This document shows, in pieces, positions 3,842-57,824 of a DNA stretch of 64,000 nt (within the stretch, counting starts at the first letter, position 1; every line of letters starts with the position of its first letter). Position numbers and translations under genes: made by a program. Origin of the DNA: Salinilacihabitans rarus (GTDB lineage: Archaea > Halobacteriota > Halobacteria > Halobacteriales > Natrialbaceae); the NCBI RefSeq assembly GCF_024296665.1, contig NZ_CP100762.1, positions 1,922,001-1,986,000 on the forward strand. The letters run 5' to 3'. Under the pieces are notes generated by a model. That model saw only the letters and a program-made list of their open reading frames with translations, had not been told where the DNA came from and searched no databases.

Positions 3842-3877
3842 GTCGGCCGCCGACCGCCGCGCCCGGGGCAGCCGAAG

Positions 3878-3883
3878 TTTTAT
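3878..3883 (+). promoter_or_regulatory. TATA box for the 3912 gene
   Basis: TTTTAT lies about 29-34 bases before the ATG at 3912, the spacing expected for a leaderless haloarchaeal transcript. Confidence 0.55.
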
Positions 3884-3911
3884 CCGTCGATCGTTCCCTC
3901 TTTCGGTACCG

Positions 3912-4319
3912 ATGTCGTCTCACCGGGGTGCGCTGTACCTGTTGCTCGTCGTCGCGGCGCTCGCGACGGGGCTGTTACACGTCGCGTTCGTCCCGCGGTA
4001 CTTCCCCGAGGACGCCCTGCGCGCGTCCGTCGTCCTCCTCGCCGGCTGGTTCACGTTCGCGCTCGCGTTCTACGTCGCGGGTCGGCTCTTCTCCCACCCC
4101 GGCGAACTGCCGAGCATGCGCGGTGCGGACCTCGGGATCGGGCTGTTCCTCGTCTCGGCGCTCGTCGCCCTGTTCCTCGACTCGCTGGGGTTTCCCCCCG
4201 AGGCGGTCCTCGGGGCGTACGCCCTGCCGGCGGTCGGCATCTACGCCGGCCTCGCGCTGATCGGCTGGGCGATCGGCAAGCGGACCGCGGCGATAAACCG
4301 GATCGCCGGCGCCGACTGA
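3912..4319 (+). CDS. Small four-helix membrane protein of unknown function
   Basis: A 135-residue hydrophobic protein with four predicted transmembrane helices, roughly residues 7-27, 38-58, 72-92 and 98-120, and a short charged tail (GKRTAAINRIAGAD). No catalytic motif is visible. The ATG at 3912 follows a TATA box at leaderless distance. It converges on the Usp gene at 4323 with only three bases between the stops. Not assigned to a named family. Confidence 0.75.
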   Translation: MSSHRGALYLLLVVAALATGLLHVAFVPRYFPEDALRASVVLLAGWFTFALAFYVAGRLFSHPGELPSMRGADLGIGLFLVSALVALFLDSLGFPPEAVLGAYALPAVGIYAGLALIGWAIGKRTAAINRIAGAD

Positions 4320-4322
4320 CCG

Positions 4323-4754
4323 TCACTCCGCCGTGTCGACGAGCACCCGGACGTCGCCAAAGCGGATCACGTGGTCGGTGACGCTCCCGACCGCCATCCG
4401 GTGGATGCCGCCCCGACCCCGCGTACCCATCACGATCAGGTCGGCGTCGACCTCGTCGGCGTAGTCGAGGATGGCCGTCCCGGCCGGCCCCGACAGCACC
4501 GCCGTCGTCACGTCGAGGTCGGCCGCCTCGGACCGGTCGGCGATGCGCGAGACGAACTCCTCGGCGCGCCCCCGGATCGCCTCCTCGGCGCTCGCGGCGT
4601 CGCCCGGCAGCCGCAGGTTCGACAGCGGGCCGGTCTCGGCGACCGAGACGACGTGGACGACCGCGTCGTGCTCGTGGGCGAGGTCGAGCGCCGTGTCGGC
4701 GGCCGTCTCGGCGTGTTCGCTGCCGTCGGTCGGAACGAGTACCGAATCGAACAT
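4323..4754 (-). CDS. Universal stress protein (UspA family)
   Basis: A 143-residue Usp beginning MFDSVLVPTDGSEHAETAAD, a typical first strand and loop. The nucleotide-binding signature is GTRGRGGIHRMAVGSVTDHVI, followed by the final strand VRVLVD. It is divergent from uvrA (start 4877), so the 122-base gap holds both promoters; this makes co-response to DNA damage conceivable but unproven. Confidence 0.9.
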   Translation of the reverse strand: MFDSVLVPTDGSEHAETAADTALDLAHEHDAVVHVVSVAETGPLSNLRLPGDAASAEEAIRGRAEEFVSRIADRSEAADLDVTTAVLSGPAGTAILDYADEVDADLIVMGTRGRGGIHRMAVGSVTDHVIRFGDVRVLVDTAE

Positions 4755-4876
4755 GACGGAGTCTCCGTCGGCGACGACCGTGAACGTTCGCCCGCGCGGC
4801 GGACCAGTTTCACTTTCGCTCCGCCCGATTCCGCAACCGACAGCCCTTCATTTGTGGGCCCGCTGACCACGGGTAG

Positions 4877-7837
4877 ATGAGCAAGGAGTACATCGAGGTT
4901 CGGGGTGCGGAAGAGCACAATCTGAAGGACCTCGACGTCTCGATCCCACGGGAGTCGTTCACCGTAGTCACGGGACTCTCCGGGTCGGGCAAGTCCTCGC
5001 TCGCGTTCGAGACGATCTACGCCGAGGGACAACGGCGCTACATCGAGAGCCTCTCGGCGTACGCGCGGAACTTCCTCGGCCAGATGGACAAGCCCCATGT
5101 CGAGACGGTCGAGGGGCTCTCGCCCGCCATCTCGATCGACCAGAAAAACGCCGCGAACAACCCCCGCTCGACGGTGGGGACGGTCACCGAACTCCACGAC
5201 TACCTGCGGCTGCTGTACGCCCGCGTCGGCACGCCCCACTGCCCCGAGTGCGGCCGCGAGGTCGGCGAGCAGTCGGCCCAGAACATGGTCGAGCGCATCC
5301 TCGAACTCCCCGAGGGGACGAAGGCGAAACTCGCCGCGCCCGTCGTTCGCGACCAGAAGGGCGCCTTCGAGGACCTCTTCGACGAGTTGGTGTCGGAGGG
5401 GTACACCCGCGTCGAGGTCGACGGCGAGGGACACGACCTCACCCTCGAGACGCCCGACCTCGACGAGAACTTCGATCACACCGTCGACGTGATCGTCGAC
5501 CGGATCGCGGTCTCCGCCGAAGGCCGCCCGCGGATCGTCGACGGCGTCGAGACGGCCCTCGAAGAGGCCGACGGCCTCCTCAAGGTGATCCTCCCCGACC
5601 CACCCGAGGACGTCGACCTCGGCGAGGAGGCCCGCTCGACCGGCGCGCTCGGCGAGGAGGGCGAGGACGACGACCGCGTCGTCGTCGAGTTCTCGAAGGA
5701 CCTCGCCTGCACCCACTGCGGCATCGACGTCCCCGAGATCGAGACCCGCAGTTTCTCCTTTAACTCGCCCCACGGCGCCTGTCCCGAGTGCGAGGGGCTG
5801 GGCGAGACGAAGGAGGTCGACGAGGACCTCGTGATCCAGGACCCCTCGAAGCCGCTCAAGCACGTCTTCGAGCCGTGGAGCTACAACCGCTCGTACTACC
5901 GCACGCGGCTCGACGCCGTCGCCGCCCACTTCGACGTCTCGCTGTCGACGCCGTTCGAGGACGTAGACGAGGCGATCCGGCGACAGTTCCTCTACGGCAC
6001 CGACGACGAGGTGCTGTTCAAGCGCCACACGAAAAACGGCGTCCGCCGGAAGACCAAGCGCTTCGAGGGGGTCGTCCCCAACCTCGAACGCCGGTACGTC
6101 GAGACGGACTCCAGTGGCACCCGCGAGCACATCGAGGACTACATGTCCGTCACCGAGTGTCCGGCCTGTGACGGCACCCGCCTCAAACCCGCGAGCCGCG
6201 CGGTGCTGATCGACGACACCTCGATCACCGAGGTCAACCGGATGAGCATCGGCGACGCCCTGGAACACTTCGAGTCGCTGGAGGCCGACCTCAGCGAGCG
6301 CGAGAAGGTGATCGCCGAGGAGATCCTGAAAGAGATCCGCGCTCGGCTGAGCTTCATGTGCGAGGTCGGACTGGAGTACCTCACGCTCGACCGGGAGGCC
6401 TCGACGCTCTCGGGCGGCGAGAGCCAGCGCATCCGGCTGGCCACGCAGATCGGCTCCGGGCTGGTCGGCGTCCTCTACGTGCTCGACGAGCCCTCGATCG
6501 GGCTCCACCAGCGGGACAACGACCGCCTGCTGAACACCCTCGAAGAACTGCGCGACCTCGGGAACACCCTGCTCGTGGTCGAACACGACGAGGAGACGAT
6601 GCGACGGGCGGACACCATCGTCGACATGGGCCCCGGCCCCGGCAAGCGCGGCGGCGAGGTCGTCGTCAACGGACCGTTCGAGGAGGTCGTCGACAGCGAG
6701 GAGTCAGTTACGGGCGACTACCTCTCCGGGCGCAAACAGATTCCGGTTCCCGAGGAGCGACGCGACCCCGACGGCGCGCTGACGGTCCTCGGCGCCCGCC
6801 AGCACAACCTCGACGACGTCGACGTGGACGTCCCGCTTGGCTGTTTCACGGCGATCACCGGGGTGTCGGGCTCCGGGAAGTCGACGCTGATGCACGAGGT
6901 GCTGTACAAGGGGCTCGCCCGCGAGATGAACGACAACACCTCCGTCATCCCGGGCGACCACGAGGCCATCGAGGGAATCGAGGAAATCGAGACCGTCCGC
7001 CTGATCGACCAGTCGCCCATCGGTCGCACGCCGCGATCGAACCCGGCCACGTACACGAACGTCTTCGACTACATCCGGGAACTGTTCGCGAAGACCAAGC
7101 TCTCGAAACAGCGCGGCTACGAGAAGGGGCGGTTCTCCTTTAACGTGAAGGGGGGCCGCTGCGAGGAGTGTGGCGGGCAGGGCACCGTCAAGATCGAGAT
7201 GAACTTCCTCTCGGACGTCTACGTCCCCTGTGAGGAGTGCGACGGCGCTCGCTACAACGACGCCACGCTCGACGTCACCTACAGGGGGAAGACGATCGCC
7301 GACGTCCTCGAGATGAGCGTCGAGGAGGCCTACGAGTTCTTCGAGTCCTCGAGCCAGATCCGTCGCCGCCTCAAACTGCTGAAGGACGTCGGCCTCGACT
7401 ACATGCGCCTCGGCCAGCCCTCGACGACGCTGTCGGGCGGCGAGGCCCAGCGAGTCAAACTCGCCGAGGAACTCGGCAAGCGCGACACCGGCGACACGCT
7501 CTACCTGCTCGACGAGCCAACCACGGGCCTGCACAGCGAGGACGAGCGCAAACTGATCGACGTCCTCCACCGACTGGTCGACAACGGCAACACCGTCGTC
7601 GTCATCGAGCACGAACTCGACCTCGTGAAAAACGCCGATCACGTCATCGACCTCGGTCCCGAGGGCGGCGAGAACGGCGGCGAGGTGATCGCCACCGGGA
7701 CTCCCGAGGAGATCGCCCACCTCGACGACTCCTACACGGGCCGGTACCTCCGGGACCTGCTTCCCGGCGTCGACCTCGAAGGGCCGCGCGGCCAGCGCGT
7801 CGAACCCGTGACGGCGCCGGTGTCGGACGACGACTGA
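4877..7837 (+). CDS. uvrA: Excinuclease ABC subunit A
   Basis: A 986-residue UvrA, the damage-recognition ATPase of nucleotide excision repair. Two ABC-type modules are present: Walker A loops GLSGSGKSS (near residue 34) and GVSGSGKST (near 660), signatures LSGGESQRI and LSGGEAQRV, and Walker B with DEPSIGLH and DEPTTGLH. Zinc modules are CTHCG...CPEC (near 275-300) and CEECG...CEEC (near 760-790). The UvrB-binding and insertion regions are at the usual places. Length is normal. Haloarchaea carry bacterial-type UvrABC; uvrB and uvrC are not in this window. The ATG at 4877 starts directly with MSKEYIEVRGAEEHNL, a standard UvrA N-terminus. Confidence 0.98.
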   Translation: MSKEYIEVRGAEEHNLKDLDVSIPRESFTVVTGLSGSGKSSLAFETIYAEGQRRYIESLSAYARNFLGQMDKPHVETVEGLSPAISIDQKNAANNPRSTVGTVTELHDYLRLLYARVGTPHCPECGREVGEQSAQNMVERILELPEGTKAKLAAPVVRDQKGAFEDLFDELVSEGYTRVEVDGEGHDLTLETPDLDENFDHTVDVIVDRIAVSAEGRPRIVDGVETALEEADGLLKVILPDPPEDVDLGEEARSTGALGEEGEDDDRVVVEFSKDLACTHCGIDVPEIETRSFSFNSPHGACPECEGLGETKEVDEDLVIQDPSKPLKHVFEPWSYNRSYYRTRLDAVAAHFDVSLSTPFEDVDEAIRRQFLYGTDDEVLFKRHTKNGVRRKTKRFEGVVPNLERRYVETDSSGTREHIEDYMSVTECPACDGTRLKPASRAVLIDDTSITEVNRMSIGDALEHFESLEADLSEREKVIAEEILKEIRARLSFMCEVGLEYLTLDREASTLSGGESQRIRLATQIGSGLVGVLYVLDEPSIGLHQRDNDRLLNTLEELRDLGNTLLVVEHDEETMRRADTIVDMGPGPGKRGGEVVVNGPFEEVVDSEESVTGDYLSGRKQIPVPEERRDPDGALTVLGARQHNLDDVDVDVPLGCFTAITGVSGSGKSTLMHEVLYKGLAREMNDNTSVIPGDHEAIEGIEEIETVRLIDQSPIGRTPRSNPATYTNVFDYIRELFAKTKLSKQRGYEKGRFSFNVKGGRCEECGGQGTVKIEMNFLSDVYVPCEECDGARYNDATLDVTYRGKTIADVLEMSVEEAYEFFESSSQIRRRLKLLKDVGLDYMRLGQPSTTLSGGEAQRVKLAEELGKRDTGDTLYLLDEPTTGLHSEDERKLIDVLHRLVDNGNTVVVIEHELDLVKNADHVIDLGPEGGENGGEVIATGTPEEIAHLDDSYTGRYLRDLLPGVDLEGPRGQRVEPVTAPVSDDD

Positions 7838-7887
7838 TCGACCCACCGAAACGATTATTCCGACCGTTTCTGTTCTCTCACCTACAG

Positions 7888-8298
7888 ATGAGCGACGCAC
7901 GGGAGACGTTCCGCCACGGCCTCGCCGCCGGCGGCTTCGCGATGCTGGCCGGACTGGGACTGCTCCTGCTCGTCTTCGGCGCCCCGGACGGGGGCGACCC
8001 GGAGTCGGTCGCGACGGTCGTCGCGCTCGCGCTCGTCGGCCTCGCGCTGCTGCTCGCCGGCCTCCGCGAGCGGACCGCGCTGGGCGTCGTGACGGTGCCG
8101 TGGAACCGGCTGGCGGCGCTCGGACTCGGCTTCGCGGCGTTATACCTCGGCGCCGGCGGCGCCGTCGCGGTCGTCGAGGGCTCCGCGACGGTCTGGAGTC
8201 TCACCCTGCTCGTCGTGGTGCCGTACTTCGCGTGGCTCGCATTCGAGTGCTGGGTCGGCGGGCGGTACATGGACCGCGAGACGTTCGCCGTCGAGTGA
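7888..8298 (+). CDS. Small four-helix membrane protein
   Basis: A 136-residue hydrophobic protein starting MSDARETFRHGLAAGG. Four membrane helices are visible at roughly residues 11-30, 42-60, 72-92 and 98-118, and the tail VGGRYMDRETFAVE is hydrophilic. There is no enzymatic motif. The ATG at 7888 fits a short promoter gap after uvrA. It ends 77 bases before the ABC ATPase gene, which has its own TATA box, so they need not share a transcript. Function unknown. Confidence 0.7.
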   Translation: MSDARETFRHGLAAGGFAMLAGLGLLLLVFGAPDGGDPESVATVVALALVGLALLLAGLRERTALGVVTVPWNRLAALGLGFAALYLGAGGAVAVVEGSATVWSLTLLVVVPYFAWLAFECWVGGRYMDRETFAVE

Positions 8299-52610: not shown

Positions 52611-53090
52611 ATGCAGGTCAAGTCCCGACACCACCTCCGGAGCGACGCCGTCGCGGACCTCGAGGACGCCGCCGAAACGCAACTCGGCGTCTCGCTCGAC
52701 GGGGACGCCTACGAACGCGTCGAGTTCGAGGACAGCGACCGCGAGGTGGTCCTCGTCGACGGTCAGCCGCAGGTGGCCTACTTCGACGAGGGGCCGTTTC
52801 TCACCGTCCGCGGCGCGAACGCCTACGACCCCGAGCGGCGGGTCGTCACCGTCGACGCCGGCGCCGTCTCGTTCGTCAGCGACGGCGCCGACGTGATGCG
52901 CCCCGGGATCACCGAGGCCGACGAGGGCATCGAGGCGGGCGACCTCGTGCTCGTCGCCGAGGAGTCCCACGGGAAGGTGCTCGCGGTCGGCCGCGCCCGC
53001 GTCGACGGCCCGGAGATGCTTGGCGACGAGGGGAAGGTCGTCGACTCGCTGCACCACGTCGGCGACGAACTGTTCGGCTTTACCGGCTGA
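52611..53090 (+). CDS. PUA-domain RNA-binding protein
   Basis: A 159-residue protein. The C-terminal half (about 75-150) is a PUA domain: VVTVDAGAVSFVSDGADVMRPGITEADEGIEAGDLV, then VGRARVDGPEM. The N-terminal half resembles the preceding domain of archaeal PUA proteins related to COG2016 (MCT-1/DENR-like). Such proteins bind structured RNA, perhaps tRNA or ribosome; role unknown. ATG at 52611 fits the TATA box. Confidence 0.9.
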   Translation: MQVKSRHHLRSDAVADLEDAAETQLGVSLDGDAYERVEFEDSDREVVLVDGQPQVAYFDEGPFLTVRGANAYDPERRVVTVDAGAVSFVSDGADVMRPGITEADEGIEAGDLVLVAEESHGKVLAVGRARVDGPEMLGDEGKVVDSLHHVGDELFGFTG

Positions 53091-53094
53091 GAAC

Positions 53095-53805
53095 TCAGTC
53101 CTCCGCCGCGTCCATCGAGTCCTCCTCGTAGGCCTCCTCGTACCGCGCCATCGCGTCCTCGTAGCCCCGCTGTGCGAGGTCGTAGGTCTCGCGCAGGTCC
53201 GCGATCGGCGTCTCCGTCGCGTCGACGCGCAGGTCGTGGGTGAACGGCGTCAGTTCGTACTCCTCGGTCGTCCGCACGAGCAACGCGGCGCTCTGGATCG
53301 GGAGTTCCTCGCGCCTGTCGCCGCCCTCGGCGTGGCCCGCCTCCAGTGCGTCGATCAGGCGCTTCGCGAGCGGTTCGTCCCGGTCGCCCTCGCGGTAGGT
53401 CGCCGCGGTCGCCTCGATCACCGACTCGCCGGTCAGGAGGTTGCCCGCGACGGTGAAGGTCTCGCCCTCGACGTGGCCGTACCAGTCCTTGCACTCCTCG
53501 CCGGAGAACGCGAAGGTGCCGTCGGCGTCGACGCCGTGTAACTGGCGCTGGGACGCGCCGTCGTCGGCGGCGAGCAGCGCCTCGAGGGCGTCCTCGACGG
53601 CGAGTCCCTCGTCGACGTACCGGATCCCGCGCCGGCCGAGGTCGACGTTCACGAGGCTCTGGGTCGCCACCGCGCCGTTCTCGCTGGCGAACGGACAGAG
53701 GGTGCCGACGCCCGGCAGGCGGGTCGTGACCGCGACGCCGAAGCGTCGCCGTTCGTCGCCGTTCCCGTCCTCGTACCGTTCGCGGACGCAGATGCTGAAG
53801 GTCAC
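53095..53805 (-). CDS. DUF1028 family protein (Ntn-hydrolase-like), intact copy
   Basis: A 236-residue protein. It starts GTG-TFSICVRERYEDGN and has the DUF1028 features RRFGVAVTTRLPGVGTLCPFASENGAVATQ, RRGIRYVDEG, DASQRQ-type RQLHGVD, TFAFSGEECKDWYGH, VAGNLLTG, GGDRREELPIQSAALLV. These proteins have an Ntn-hydrolase-like fold and often lie near peptidases; the activity is unknown. It follows a subtilisin gene, 75 bases upstream on the same strand with a T-run between (53831-53836). A broken relative is at 55606-55737. Confidence 0.88.
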   Translation of the reverse strand: MTFSICVRERYEDGNGDERRRFGVAVTTRLPGVGTLCPFASENGAVATQSLVNVDLGRRGIRYVDEGLAVEDALEALLAADDGASQRQLHGVDADGTFAFSGEECKDWYGHVEGETFTVAGNLLTGESVIEATAATYREGDRDEPLAKRLIDALEAGHAEGGDRREELPIQSAALLVRTTEEYELTPFTHDLRVDATETPIADLRETYDLAQRGYEDAMARYEEAYEEDSMDAAED

Positions 53806-53879
53806 GGCTGGCCACAGGGATCGAACCGGCAAAAAAGTCGCTATCGGGAGACGATTCGAAACCGGGTCGGCGCGACGGC

Positions 53880-55409
53880 TTACGCGCCCTCGATGCGCTC
53901 GCGCAGGCTGATGCCGGCGTGGCCGCTCGCACCCACGGCGATGCCGAGCAGGTACAGCGCGGTCAGCACCACCCCCAGCGACGCGCTGGCGGCGCGCGAG
54001 TCGGTCGCGTCCTGTCGGTTCGACAGGTCGGCACAGACCTCGACGATCTCGCGGGTCGCGCGGGTCGTCAGGCTGTTGGGGTGGTCCGCGAGCGTCGTGG
54101 CGATCGGCGGGCTGATCCGGTAGTACAGTCCGACGAGCGCGCGCCCGATCGGCGTCGCCGACATCGACTCGTCGCGGAACCGCCGCAGCGAGTCGAGCGT
54201 GTCGCTCTCGCCGGCGGTCGCCGTCGTGATGTAACAGCCGCCGCCGTCGTCGTTCTGACACGCGGTCTCGCCGTCACACGTGCTCGGCTCCTCGAGGCCG
54301 AGCGAGGCCGCGACGTTGAGCCGACCGTAGCCCTGGTCCGCCTCACACCGGCAGATGTCGTCGGCCCCGTCGCGCAGTTGCTGGCGGGCATCGCTGGCGG
54401 AGGCGCCGTTGGCGATCAACACCGCGCCACCGCCGGCGACGTGCGGGCACGCCATCGACGTGCCGTCGAGCGTGTTGTAGCCGCCATCGTTGTACGTCGA
54501 GTAGACGCCGGCGCCGGGTGCGGCGATCTCGATCTCGGGGCCGGTCGAGGAGAACGATGCCAGGTCGTCGTTCTCGTCGGTCGCGCTGACGGCGACGACC
54601 TCCGGGTAGGCCGCCGGATGGCTCACGCAGTCCGAACAGGGGCCGTCGTTGCCGGCGGCCGCCACCAGCAGGACGCCCTCGCTGTCGGCGTACTGGACGG
54701 CGTCCTCGACGACCGAGGAGGCGCTGCCGCCGAGGCTCATGCTCCCGACGTCGTAGCCCTGATCGGCCGTCCACTCGATGCCGGCGGCGATGTCGTCGTA
54801 GTACCCGCTGCCCTGGCTGTCGAGTACCTTCGCGGCGTGCAGGGTCGCCTCGGGGGCGACGCCGACGACGCCCTCGTTGTTGTCGACGGCGGCGACGGTG
54901 CCCGCACAGTGGGTGCCGTGGCCGTTGTCGTCGTCCCACGAACCCGTGCCGGTGAAGTCCGCGCCCGCGCCGAGGTTGGCCTCCAGGTCCGGGTGGTCCT
55001 CGTCGATGCCGGTGTCGATGACGGCGACGTCCGCGCCGTCGCCGGTGTAGCCGCCGTCGTGTGCGACGTCGGCCCTGACGGTCTCGATGCCGTACGGCGT
55101 CGACTGCGCCAGCGCCTCCATCGTGCCGTTCTCTTCGACGTACCGGACGTTCGGGTTGTTCTCGAGGGCCTCGATCGCCGCCTCGGAGAACCGGCCCGCG
55201 ACCGCCTTTCCGATCGATCCGAAGTCGAGTTCGCGACGCACCGATTCCGCCGCCGCACGAACGTCGCCGAGGCCGCCATCGGCGACGACGCCGACGACGT
55301 GACCCACACTTTCGTCGTTCGCGGATGCCTGTCCCGCCAGCGCGGCCGTACCGACGCTTGCACCGACTCCTCGAATGACCGTTCGCCGTGAGATTCGATC
55401 ATTTGCCAT
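53880..55409 (-). CDS. Secreted subtilisin-like protease with C-terminal CFI-box
   Basis: A 509-residue S8 protease (halolysin type). Twin-arginine signal at SRRTVIRGVGASVGTAA (R8-R9), propeptide about 30-105, catalytic triad D132 (VIDTG), H164 (GHGTH) and S318 (GTSMACPH), and oxyanion Asn N254. After the protease domain, C392-Y-I begins a segment to about 445 (LRRFRDESMSATPIGRALVGLYYRISPP) that matches the CFI-box-CTERM pattern, and residues 476-498 are a hydrophobic helix. The CFI-box is probably a surface or processing signal. The paralogue at 55785 lacks it. Confidence 0.93.
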   Translation of the reverse strand: MANDRISRRTVIRGVGASVGTAALAGQASANDESVGHVVGVVADGGLGDVRAAAESVRRELDFGSIGKAVAGRFSEAAIEALENNPNVRYVEENGTMEALAQSTPYGIETVRADVAHDGGYTGDGADVAVIDTGIDEDHPDLEANLGAGADFTGTGSWDDDNGHGTHCAGTVAAVDNNEGVVGVAPEATLHAAKVLDSQGSGYYDDIAAGIEWTADQGYDVGSMSLGGSASSVVEDAVQYADSEGVLLVAAAGNDGPCSDCVSHPAAYPEVVAVSATDENDDLASFSSTGPEIEIAAPGAGVYSTYNDGGYNTLDGTSMACPHVAGGGAVLIANGASASDARQQLRDGADDICRCEADQGYGRLNVAASLGLEEPSTCDGETACQNDDGGGCYITTATAGESDTLDSLRRFRDESMSATPIGRALVGLYYRISPPIATTLADHPNSLTTRATREIVEVCADLSNRQDATDSRAASASLGVVLTALYLLGIAVGASGHAGISLRERIEGA

Positions 55410-55445
55410 GGTAATTAAACCACACGACCAGTGTTAGCTATCCGA

Positions 55446-55453
55446 ATATAAAT
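55446..55453 (-). promoter_or_regulatory. TATA box of the first subtilisin gene
   Basis: ATTTATAT on the minus strand ends 37 bases before the ATG at 55409; the paralogue at 57269 has ATTATAAA at the same distance. Confidence 0.5.
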
Positions 55454-55605
55454 CCACCCGTTCGTTAACGATATGCTATTATAATTTCCTGTTTTTATCT
55501 CTACGAGCGTATTTGCCCAAGATTTAAATTAGGGAGCGTGCGGGAGTCGTCCGTGCGGTCGGCACCTCGGCGGAGGCCGGCGAGTCGTCATCGAACCGGG
55601 GGTCG

Positions 55606-55737
55606 ACTGCGCCGTTCTCGCTGGCGACCGGACAGGGGGTGCCGACGCCCGGGACGGGTCGTGGCCGCGACGCCGAAGCGGCGGTGGATCTCGCCGTCGT
55701 TCTCGTACTCCTCGCGGACGCAGTCGCTGAACGGCCG
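55606..55737 (-). pseudogene. DUF1028 gene remnant
   Basis: About 130 bases read, on the minus strand, SDCVREEYENDGEIHRRFGVA then (after a frame change) a garbled tail. They align with the start of the intact DUF1028 gene (53805 downward): ICVRERYEDGNGDERRRFGVA and the following LPGVGT region. A two-base deletion in the CCCGG stretch near 55650 shifts the frame; the GTG start is lost, and the remainder of the gene is absent. It sits between the two subtilisin genes. Confidence 0.75.
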
Positions 55738-55784
55738 GGGCGACGCGCCGTCGCGTCGAAAAAGATCGGCCCGCGGCAGCCCCG

Positions 55785-57269
55785 TCAGAGCGACTGCGTG
55801 TCGGTCGTCTCGTTGCCCGCGGCGTCCGTGACCGCAAGGCGGACCGCGTCCGCCGCGCCGCGCGTGCGGAGGCCGTGCTCGCCCGACGCGCTCGCGCCGG
55901 AGACCGAGGACGTCTCCTCGTCGACGACGACGTCGCCGTCGAGCAGTTCGCTGGTCACCGACGCGAGGTCGCCGTCGGCGTCGGAGACCGACCACTCGAC
56001 GTCCGCACGGGTCCACGGCCCGGAGGTCCGGGTGGAGACGACGAACTCGTCGATCGAGGGCGCCGAGTCGCCGTCACCGCCGCCGCCGTCGTCGATGCCG
56101 AGCGCCGCGGCGACGTTGACCCGGCCGTAGCCCTGTTCGTTCTCGCCGAGGCCGACGTCGTCGGCGGTTTCGCGGAGGCGCTGGCGCGCTTCCGTGTCGG
56201 TGTAGCCGTTGGCCATCAACTGGGCGGCGGCGCCGGAGACGTGCGGGCACGCCATCGACGTCCCCGAGAACCGGTCGTAGTCGCTCCGCGGGATCGACGA
56301 GAGCACGTCGACGCCGGGCGCGGCGAGTTCGACCTCCGGCCCCGTCGAGGAGAAGTCCGCGAGGTCGTCGTTCTCGTCGGTCGCGCTGACGGCGACGACC
56401 TCCGGGTAGGCCGCGGGGTAGCCGACGCAGTCCGAGCAGGGGCCGTCGTTGCCCGCCGCGGCGACGAGCAACGTTCCCTGCTGGCGGGCGTAGGCGCAGG
56501 CGTCCTCGACGACCGAGGAGGCGTCGCCGCCGAGGCTCATGCTCCCGACGTCGTAACCCTGATCGGCCGTCCACTCGATGCCGGCGGCGATGTCGTCGTA
56601 CGACCCGCTGCCACAGCAGTCGAGTACCTTCACCGCGTGGAGCGTGGCGTCGGGCGCGACGCCGACGACGCCCGTGTCGTCGTCGACGGCGGCGACGGTA
56701 CCCGCACAGTGGGTGCCGTGGTCGTTGTCGTCGTCCCACGCCTCGTAGCAGGTGCTGATGTCGTTCGGGTCACAGAAGAGGCCACTGGAGCAGTCGTTCT
56801 GACAGGCGGCCTCCTGTGTGGCCCACCCCTCGCCGAGGTTGTCCGCGAGGTCCTCGTGAGTGGCGTCGATGCCGGTGTCGATGATCGCCACGTCGGCGCC
56901 GTCGCCCGTCTCGCCCGCATCGATCGCGAGGTCCGCCCCGACGGTCTCGATGCCGTACGGCGTCGTCTGGGCGAGCGCGCGCATCGTCCCGTTCCTCTCG
57001 ACGTACCGGACGTTCGGATCGTTCCCGAGGGCCTCGATGGCCGCCTCGGAGAACCGGCCAGCGACCGCCTTTCCGATCGATCCGAAGTCGAGTTCGCGCT
57101 TGACCGACGTCGCCGCGCTACGGGCCGCGCTCGCGCCGCGGTCGGGTTCGACGCCGACCACGTACTCGTCGCCCTCGCTCGCGGTCGCCTGTCCGGCGAG
57201 CGCCGTGCCGGCGACGCCGGCGCCGACGCCGCGAAGTACCGTCCGTCGTGAGATGTGCTCATTTGTCAT
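55785..57269 (-). CDS. Secreted subtilisin-like protease, paralogue with Ig-like tail
   Basis: A 494-residue S8 protease. Twin-arginine signal SRRTVLRGVGAGVAGTA (R8-R9), propeptide similar to the first copy, triad D131, H184 and S338, oxyanion Asn N274. An extra 25-residue insertion (about 151-177) holds four cysteines (C156, C160, C166, C174), likely disulfides in the extracellular enzyme. After residue 400 a Gly-rich linker leads to an Ig-like domain (SIDEFVVSTRTSGPWTRADVEWSVSDADGDL). There is no CFI-box or terminal helix. Most of the catalytic domain is nearly identical to the 53880 gene. Confidence 0.93.
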   Translation of the reverse strand: MTNEHISRRTVLRGVGAGVAGTALAGQATASEGDEYVVGVEPDRGASAARSAATSVKRELDFGSIGKAVAGRFSEAAIEALGNDPNVRYVERNGTMRALAQTTPYGIETVGADLAIDAGETGDGADVAIIDTGIDATHEDLADNLGEGWATQEAACQNDCSSGLFCDPNDISTCYEAWDDDNDHGTHCAGTVAAVDDDTGVVGVAPDATLHAVKVLDCCGSGSYDDIAAGIEWTADQGYDVGSMSLGGDASSVVEDACAYARQQGTLLVAAAGNDGPCSDCVGYPAAYPEVVAVSATDENDDLADFSSTGPEVELAAPGVDVLSSIPRSDYDRFSGTSMACPHVSGAAAQLMANGYTDTEARQRLRETADDVGLGENEQGYGRVNVAAALGIDDGGGGDGDSAPSIDEFVVSTRTSGPWTRADVEWSVSDADGDLASVTSELLDGDVVVDEETSSVSGASASGEHGLRTRGAADAVRLAVTDAAGNETTDTQSL

Positions 57270-57314: not shown

Positions 57315-57434
57315 CCGACCGGTTGTTCTCCCGGAACGACCACTTGCAGGAATACAGATCGGCGACGTCGGACGGCGAATCGGCGGAACGGTCCCGATCG
57401 GCACGCGATCCGGACACTCCGTCTGACGTAAGAA

Positions 57435-57440
57435 CTATAC
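57435..57440 (+). promoter_or_regulatory. TATA box of sepF
   Basis: CTATAC, 25-30 bases before the ATG at 57465, consistent with leaderless transcription. Confidence 0.5.
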
Positions 57441-57464
57441 TCGCGGCTGCGGTCGGTGTTCCCT

Positions 57465-57824
57465 ATGGGATTGATGAGCAAAATCCTCGGCGGCGGCCAG
57501 TCCCGGTCGGCCGAGGACTACGTCGAACTCGACCTCGACGACGTCGCCGGCGGCGGCAGCGAGGCGACGATGCACGTCCACGTCGCTGAGATCGACGGCC
57601 AGGCGTCGGTCATCGACATCAAAGACGCCGTCTACGACGGCGACGTCGTCGTCGCCGACATCACCCGCCTGCGGACGAAAGACAGCACGGTCGAGCACAT
57701 CATGGACGAACTCCGACAGGTGGCACAGGAGGTCGACGGCGACATCGTCCAGAAGGGCGACGACCAGATCATCGTCACTCCCACCGGCGTCCGGGTCGGG
57801 CGGGAGAAACTCGGGAAGCGGTAA
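57465..57824 (+). CDS. sepF: Cell division protein SepF
   Basis: A 119-residue archaeal SepF, the membrane anchor of FtsZ. The N-terminal amphipathic helix MGLMSKILGG is the membrane-targeting sequence; an acidic linker (DYVELDLDDVAGG) precedes the SepF domain with HVHVAEIDGQASVIDIKDAVYDG and VADITRLRTKDSTVEHIMDELRQVAQEVDGDIVQ. Essential in Haloferax. ATG at 57465 matches the conserved MGLM start (an ATG at 57474 gives a shorter version). Confidence 0.95.
   Translation: MGLMSKILGGGQSRSAEDYVELDLDDVAGGGSEATMHVHVAEIDGQASVIDIKDAVYDGDVVVADITRLRTKDSTVEHIMDELRQVAQEVDGDIVQKGDDQIIVTPTGVRVGREKLGKR

Follow-up and report, generated by a model that had tools for sequence, protein, structure and literature searches.

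Within a 64,000-nucleotide stretch of the chromosome of the haloarchaeon Salinilacihabitans rarus (contig NZ_CP100762.1, positions 1,922,001 to 1,986,000; chromosome of 3.62 Mb, one contig), referred to below as the window, the interval between the gene for SepF and a gene for a PUA-domain protein carries two subtilase genes in tandem (S2 upstream, S1 downstream), an intact gene of the DUF1028 family and the remnant of another DUF1028 gene. We put at about an even chance the reading that this locus is a composite, put together long ago from two protease-DUF1028 units by tandem doubling and a subsequent replacement of the tail of one protease. Two findings carry this reading. Comparison with relatives shows that the remnant (hereafter the stub) occupies the place that DUF1028 takes behind their S2-type proteases, and trees and diagnostic residues show S1 to be a chimera, in which a leader, signal peptide and propeptide of S2 type (about residues 1-115) are joined to a C-terminal half of CFI type, named here after the CFI_box_CTERM domain. 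On the minus strand the order of transcription is S2, stub, S1 and intact DUF1028, and the features of the interval and its flanks are as follows.

57456-57824, plus strand: gene for SepF (cell division), left flank, syntenic in relatives (Pfam SepF, E 1e-13)
55785-57269, minus strand: S2, subtilase exported through Tat, C-terminal domain not of CFI type (Peptidase_S8, E 2e-60)
55759-55763, minus strand: T-run ahead of the stub, apparent relic of a DUF1028 promoter box, read from the sequence
55600-55737, minus strand: DUF1028 remnant, codons 1-46, with start codon and Thr2 lost, a 2-nt deletion and no 3' part
55410-55599, minus strand: stub–S1 spacer, including the AT-rich S1 promoter
53880-55409, minus strand: S1, chimeric subtilase with S2-type head, mixed middle and CFI-type tail
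53831-53836, minus strand: T6 box, predicted DUF1028 promoter element, 25 nt ahead of the DUF1028 start
53095-53805, minus strand: intact DUF1028 gene, 236 amino acids, GTG start, Thr2 (Pfam DUF1028, E 1e-60)
52611-53090, plus strand: gene for a PUA-domain RNA-binding protein, right flank, syntenic in relatives (Pfam PUA, NCBIfam PRK14560)

The DUF1028 relic and its intact counterpart

The stub (55731-55600, minus strand) aligns with the intact gene (53799-53661, minus strand) at 82.9% identity over 140 columns, with a blastn E value of 8e-29 in a search of the window and a local score of 154 against a maximum of 38 among 500 dinucleotide shuffles; no better match to the stub was found elsewhere in the window. 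The initial annotation had taken 55606-55737 for a frameshifted piece of DUF1028 and had placed an intact copy behind the first protease (S1), and both statements are borne out, the similarity extending well beyond a few codons. The frameshift is a 2-base deletion across which codons 1-46 are joined in two frames, recovered by tblastn as residues 3-32 and 30-46, and the start codon and Thr2 (GTG ACC) are replaced by CGG CCG. The intact gene is a full-length member of the family (PF06267; 205.2 bits with a cut-off of 26.2, profile positions 1-193 of 193), its relative in the PDB by sequence being 2imh from Silicibacter pomeroyi (E 1.3e-8, residues 53-215), whereas the stub, reduced to codons 1-46, frameshifted and deprived of its start, is a relic and not a member. 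Thr2 is the second residue in every DUF1028 listed. These proteins are candidate N-terminal-nucleophile hydrolases in which Thr2 would become the nucleophile after removal of the Met, and a putative catalytic role of this residue is plausible.

The stub is altered at Ile5, Val26, Leu36 and Phe39, all in columns at least 97% conserved, and breaks 6 of 61 conserved columns, compared with a maximum of 3 in any intact gene. Its differences from the intact copy are distributed over the three codon positions as 8/7/8, compared with 6/4/10 and 5/3/10 when the intact gene is set against two other genera. Because the changes are spread evenly over codon positions and conserved columns are broken, the decay is, judged by its pattern, neutral. 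Identity of the stub reaches 82% with the intact copy of its own genome and 82-83% with the nearest genes of other genera, which dates the separation of the two copies to roughly the age of the genus.

Between the S2 stop and the stub lies a spacer of 54 nt that resembles the S2-DUF1028 spacer of genome G001 (55 nt; p 0.003) and matches those of G032 and G129 (0 of 300 shuffles as high), and a family-wide DNA search runs across the S2 end in only a few genomes, G001 and G032 among them. The spacer between S1 and the intact DUF1028 scores 46, 43 and 49 against the CFI-DUF1028 spacers of G017, G068 and G029, respectively, as compared with a maximum of 31 against S2 spacers. These likenesses argue that the stub was formerly the gene behind S2 and that a CFI tail now precedes the intact DUF1028. 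No further DUF1028 pieces were found in the stub–S1 spacer, and no relatives were found of the part of it adjoining the stub.

In 67 of 70 loci a T-run or a TTAT/TTTA box ends 22-28 nt ahead of the DUF1028 start, and control windows shifted by 30-120 nt gave 3 box matches in 420. The T-run had been described as a common feature following the stop codons of the proteases; it is best read as a predicted promoter of DUF1028, and a shared protease terminator is ruled out by the presence of the box at DUF1028 in 38 of 41 loci with no protease close upstream. A promoter of its own implies that DUF1028 would be transcribed independently. TATA-like boxes, as previously noted, can be read about 37-39 bases ahead of the ATG of each protease. 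Leaderless transcripts make up 72% of the protein-coding ones in Haloferax volcanii (PMC4983044).

Two lineages within one protease

Both S1 and S2 are intact subtilases (Pfam Peptidase_S8, E 4e-56 and 2e-60, respectively) with the D/H/S motifs and a twin-arginine translocation (Tat) signal of the form SRRTV(I/L). Together with a C-terminal extension, these features give both proteins the layout of halolysins such as SptA of Natrinema and Nep of Natrialba magadii, namely Tat signal, propeptide, S8 catalytic domain and C-terminal extension (PMC6085418), a likeness judged by the published layout. They differ from the halolysins in their ends, S1 terminating in a CFI-box domain with a hydrophobic segment and S2 in a C-terminal domain of its own. 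CFI_box_CTERM (NF041770) is matched by S1 with 56.7 bits (cut-off 40) and not by S2, and hydropathy reveals a hydrophobic segment at residues 473-498 of S1 (19-residue mean up to 2.07) and none at the C terminus of S2. Since S1 possesses both elements and S2 neither, S1 is probably membrane-tethered and S2 probably released as a secreted, halolysin-like enzyme.

The catalytic cores had been called near-identical, which overstates their likeness: over residues 116-368 they share 71% amino acid and 78% nucleotide identity, and sliding identity along S1 and S2 is patchy, with 94% at residues 61-90, 92% at 196-225 and 67% at 286-330. The C termini are unrelated. In the whole-protein tree S2 falls in a 19-row S2 clade (support 100/100) and S1 in the CFI clade (100/99). 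A tree of the core alone draws S1 toward S2, yet a clade of S1 and S2 is rejected by the approximately unbiased (AU) test (p 1e-4). When the protein is divided, residues 1-115 of S1 group with the S2 of the same genome (80/86), and residues 301-509 lie in the CFI clade (100/100) with S1 plus S2 rejected at an AU p of 4e-72. The same course is followed by the 46 residues that are diagnostic for one lineage or the other. Counts of S2-type versus CFI-type residues in S1 are 5 to 0 for positions 1-115, 1 to 3 for 116-195, 4 to 4 for 196-300 and 2 to 26 for 301-509; S2 carries mostly S2-type residues along its whole length. Moreover, the S1 signal peptide (SRRTVIRGVGA...ALAGQASA) is of S2 type and the leader ahead of its ATG resembles S2 leaders (GTGGTTT-A-TACC). 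The chimera is thus supported by several modest lines at the head of S1 and by very strong evidence at the tail.

Proposed doubling and tail replacement, and competing histories

Under the composite reading, an S2-DUF1028 segment would have become doubled in tandem, as supported by the position of the stub upstream of an S2-type leader and head. The doubled segment may have begun upstream of S2 and ended near codon 46 of DUF1028, in which case the stub would have been born truncated, or a whole second unit may have arisen, the DUF1028 of which disappeared later. In a next step, a CFI-DUF1028 relative would have recombined homologously within the protease core and replaced the back of the second protease together with the spacer, and later conversion between S1 and S2 would have patched the protease middle. 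DUF1028, with a leaderless promoter to itself, would be a cytoplasmic product, for which one gene copy would suffice, leaving the second free to decay.

Several points weigh against this sequence of events. The head of S1 is joined to S2 with only moderate support (80/86), a single clade of all CFI heads having an AU p of 0.061, and it could instead have been overwritten by gene conversion; the score of the 20-nt S1 leader, taken alone, is near the shuffle null, and the silent matches that S1 and S2 share are weakly clustered (run test p 0.037). The S2–stub spacer scores at chance against others of the S2-DUF1028 spacers, and no recognisable upstream S2 sequence lies between the stub and the S1 promoter. 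With its 130 bases the stub takes no resolved position in the tree, and the AU test does not reject it as sister of the intact copy (p 0.35).

The chief rival, which we regard as possible, though with well under an even chance, is that a complete CFI-protease-DUF1028 unit from another haloarchaeon entered a native S2-DUF1028 locus, the native DUF1028 being cut to 46 codons at the junction and the incoming protease head being overwritten by conversion from S2. CFI-DUF1028 units do stand at the same site in G017, G068, G029 and G012, the S1 tail and spacer are of CFI type, and the patches shared by S1 and S2 look like conversion, as does the tandem pair at locus L037, where a silent-site run test favors it (p 0.0004). 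Gene conversion is well documented in polyploid haloarchaea, and it is efficient between molecules in Haloferax volcanii (PMC8223754, PMC11276520). However, the conversion tract must reach the leader and possibly the promoter. In addition, the intact DUF1028 groups with the neighboring genera, G020 and Natribaculum (96/85), apart from the CFI-linked DUF1028 of G017, G068, G029 and G012. The DUF1028 tree broadly follows genera and not the type of protease ahead, and the best match of the intact gene varies along its length with no clear chimeric break.

An unlikely course of events is that an ancestral S2-CFI-DUF1028 tandem gained a stray 5' piece of DUF1028 between its two proteases by illegitimate recombination, its CFI head being converted by S2. 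Tandems of this order, and without a stub, do occur in G020 (L049) and G078 (L119), and the former is the genome of the closest DUF1028 relative (80%). The stub nevertheless keeps an S2-DUF1028-like spacer and a promoter box on its S2 side, which argues that it was a gene beside S2 and not a random drop-in.

More doubtful still is the history proposed by the initial annotation, in which one tandem duplication of the pair within the lineage was followed by decay of one DUF1028 and ordinary mutational divergence of the proteases. The tandem order, the stub as the DUF1028 behind an S2-type protease, and the S2-type leader, signal and propeptide of S1 (80/86) agree with it, and this part of the proposal stands. 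The duplicated pair as such does not, given that the C-terminal half of S1, its C-terminal domain and the spacer to DUF1028 are not of S2 but of CFI type (tail in the CFI clade at 100/100) and the AU test rejects S1 plus S2 for both core and tail (p 1e-4 and 4e-72), which rules out a plain recent tandem duplication. The two proteases are not mutually closer than to their orthologues along the whole length and the stub lies no nearer to its intact counterpart than to the genes of other genera, so that no recent duplication is visible. The loss of a partner may likewise be superfluous, since truncation of the stub may date from its very origin, at the end point of a duplication or recombination. 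A chance match or a functional element such as a regulatory leader, for which no evidence was found, has a negligible probability given the E value of 8e-29 over 140 columns, the broken conserved residues and the even spread of changes over codon positions.

The SepF–PUA interval in other haloarchaea

Haloarchaea of several families have DUF1028 in the interval between sepF and the PUA gene, with 0, 1 or 2 proteases ahead of it. A lone S2-type protease precedes it in G001, G005, G032, G142, G143, G145, G125-G129, G131 and Natronorubrum, and a lone CFI-type protease stands at the same site in G017, G068, G029 and G012. In G130 (L130, about 6455-7945) the loss is of the opposite kind: DUF1028 is intact, and the S2 protease ahead of it appears to be split over several reading frames. 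In L117, L118 and L071 (genus g11) a CFI protease is located beyond sepF, about 5 kb from DUF1028, in a rearranged locus. A highly conserved block, AGTATAGTTCTTACGTCAGACG, at 57414-57445 of the window, recurs in most relatives in the gap that separates sepF from the protease or from DUF1028, and is probably the sepF promoter.

Tandem subtilase pairs in Halorussus and other haloarchaea (L033, L035, L037, L041, L048; G020, G078) share the order SepF, protease, protease, DUF1028, PUA, and within several genomes their cores are alike and their C termini different, as in the window; they differ from it in that none has a DUF1028 relic between the proteases. The Halorussus pairs at L037, L035 and L048 have similar cores (up to 92% amino acid identity in L037, the pair with the conversion-like silent sites) and unrelated C termini. 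Two tandem S2-type proteases with a single DUF1028 are found in L125 (G144; 3857-7901), the second being a strongly diverged protein of 734 amino acids, with no DUF1028 piece between them. Among all loci tested, only the window has a DUF1028 piece between tandem proteases, and the search for an intact second DUF1028 at the locus found none among the relatives' loci that were read. Seven genomes gave more than one strong DUF1028 match; their additional matches are diverged paralogues located elsewhere or come from a single gene that is split over two segments. Gene relics left by tandem duplication with concerted evolution likewise combine a truncated, frameshifted partner with mosaic identity between neighbors, whereas the proteases of the window come from distinct lineages and not from one recent duplication.

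Tentatively, the haloarchaeal SepF–PUA interval may be a swap site, at which subtilase genes and their 3' spacers are exchanged ahead of a mostly vertically inherited DUF1028, the window having caught such a swap half-way, with a chimeric protease and a DUF1028 relic. Should this be true, the recurrent pairing would point to a cytoplasmic hydrolase and an exported protease acting in one pathway. Apart from the patchwork of both lineages in S1, the locus is a case of ordinary gene turnover and gene-neighborhood evolution. It shows how exported proteases of haloarchaea can be rebuilt from a head and a tail of different lineages, where the choice between release and membrane tethering probably lies with the tail, and it provides a clean neighborhood link, SepF, protease-DUF1028 and PUA, for a family of no known function.

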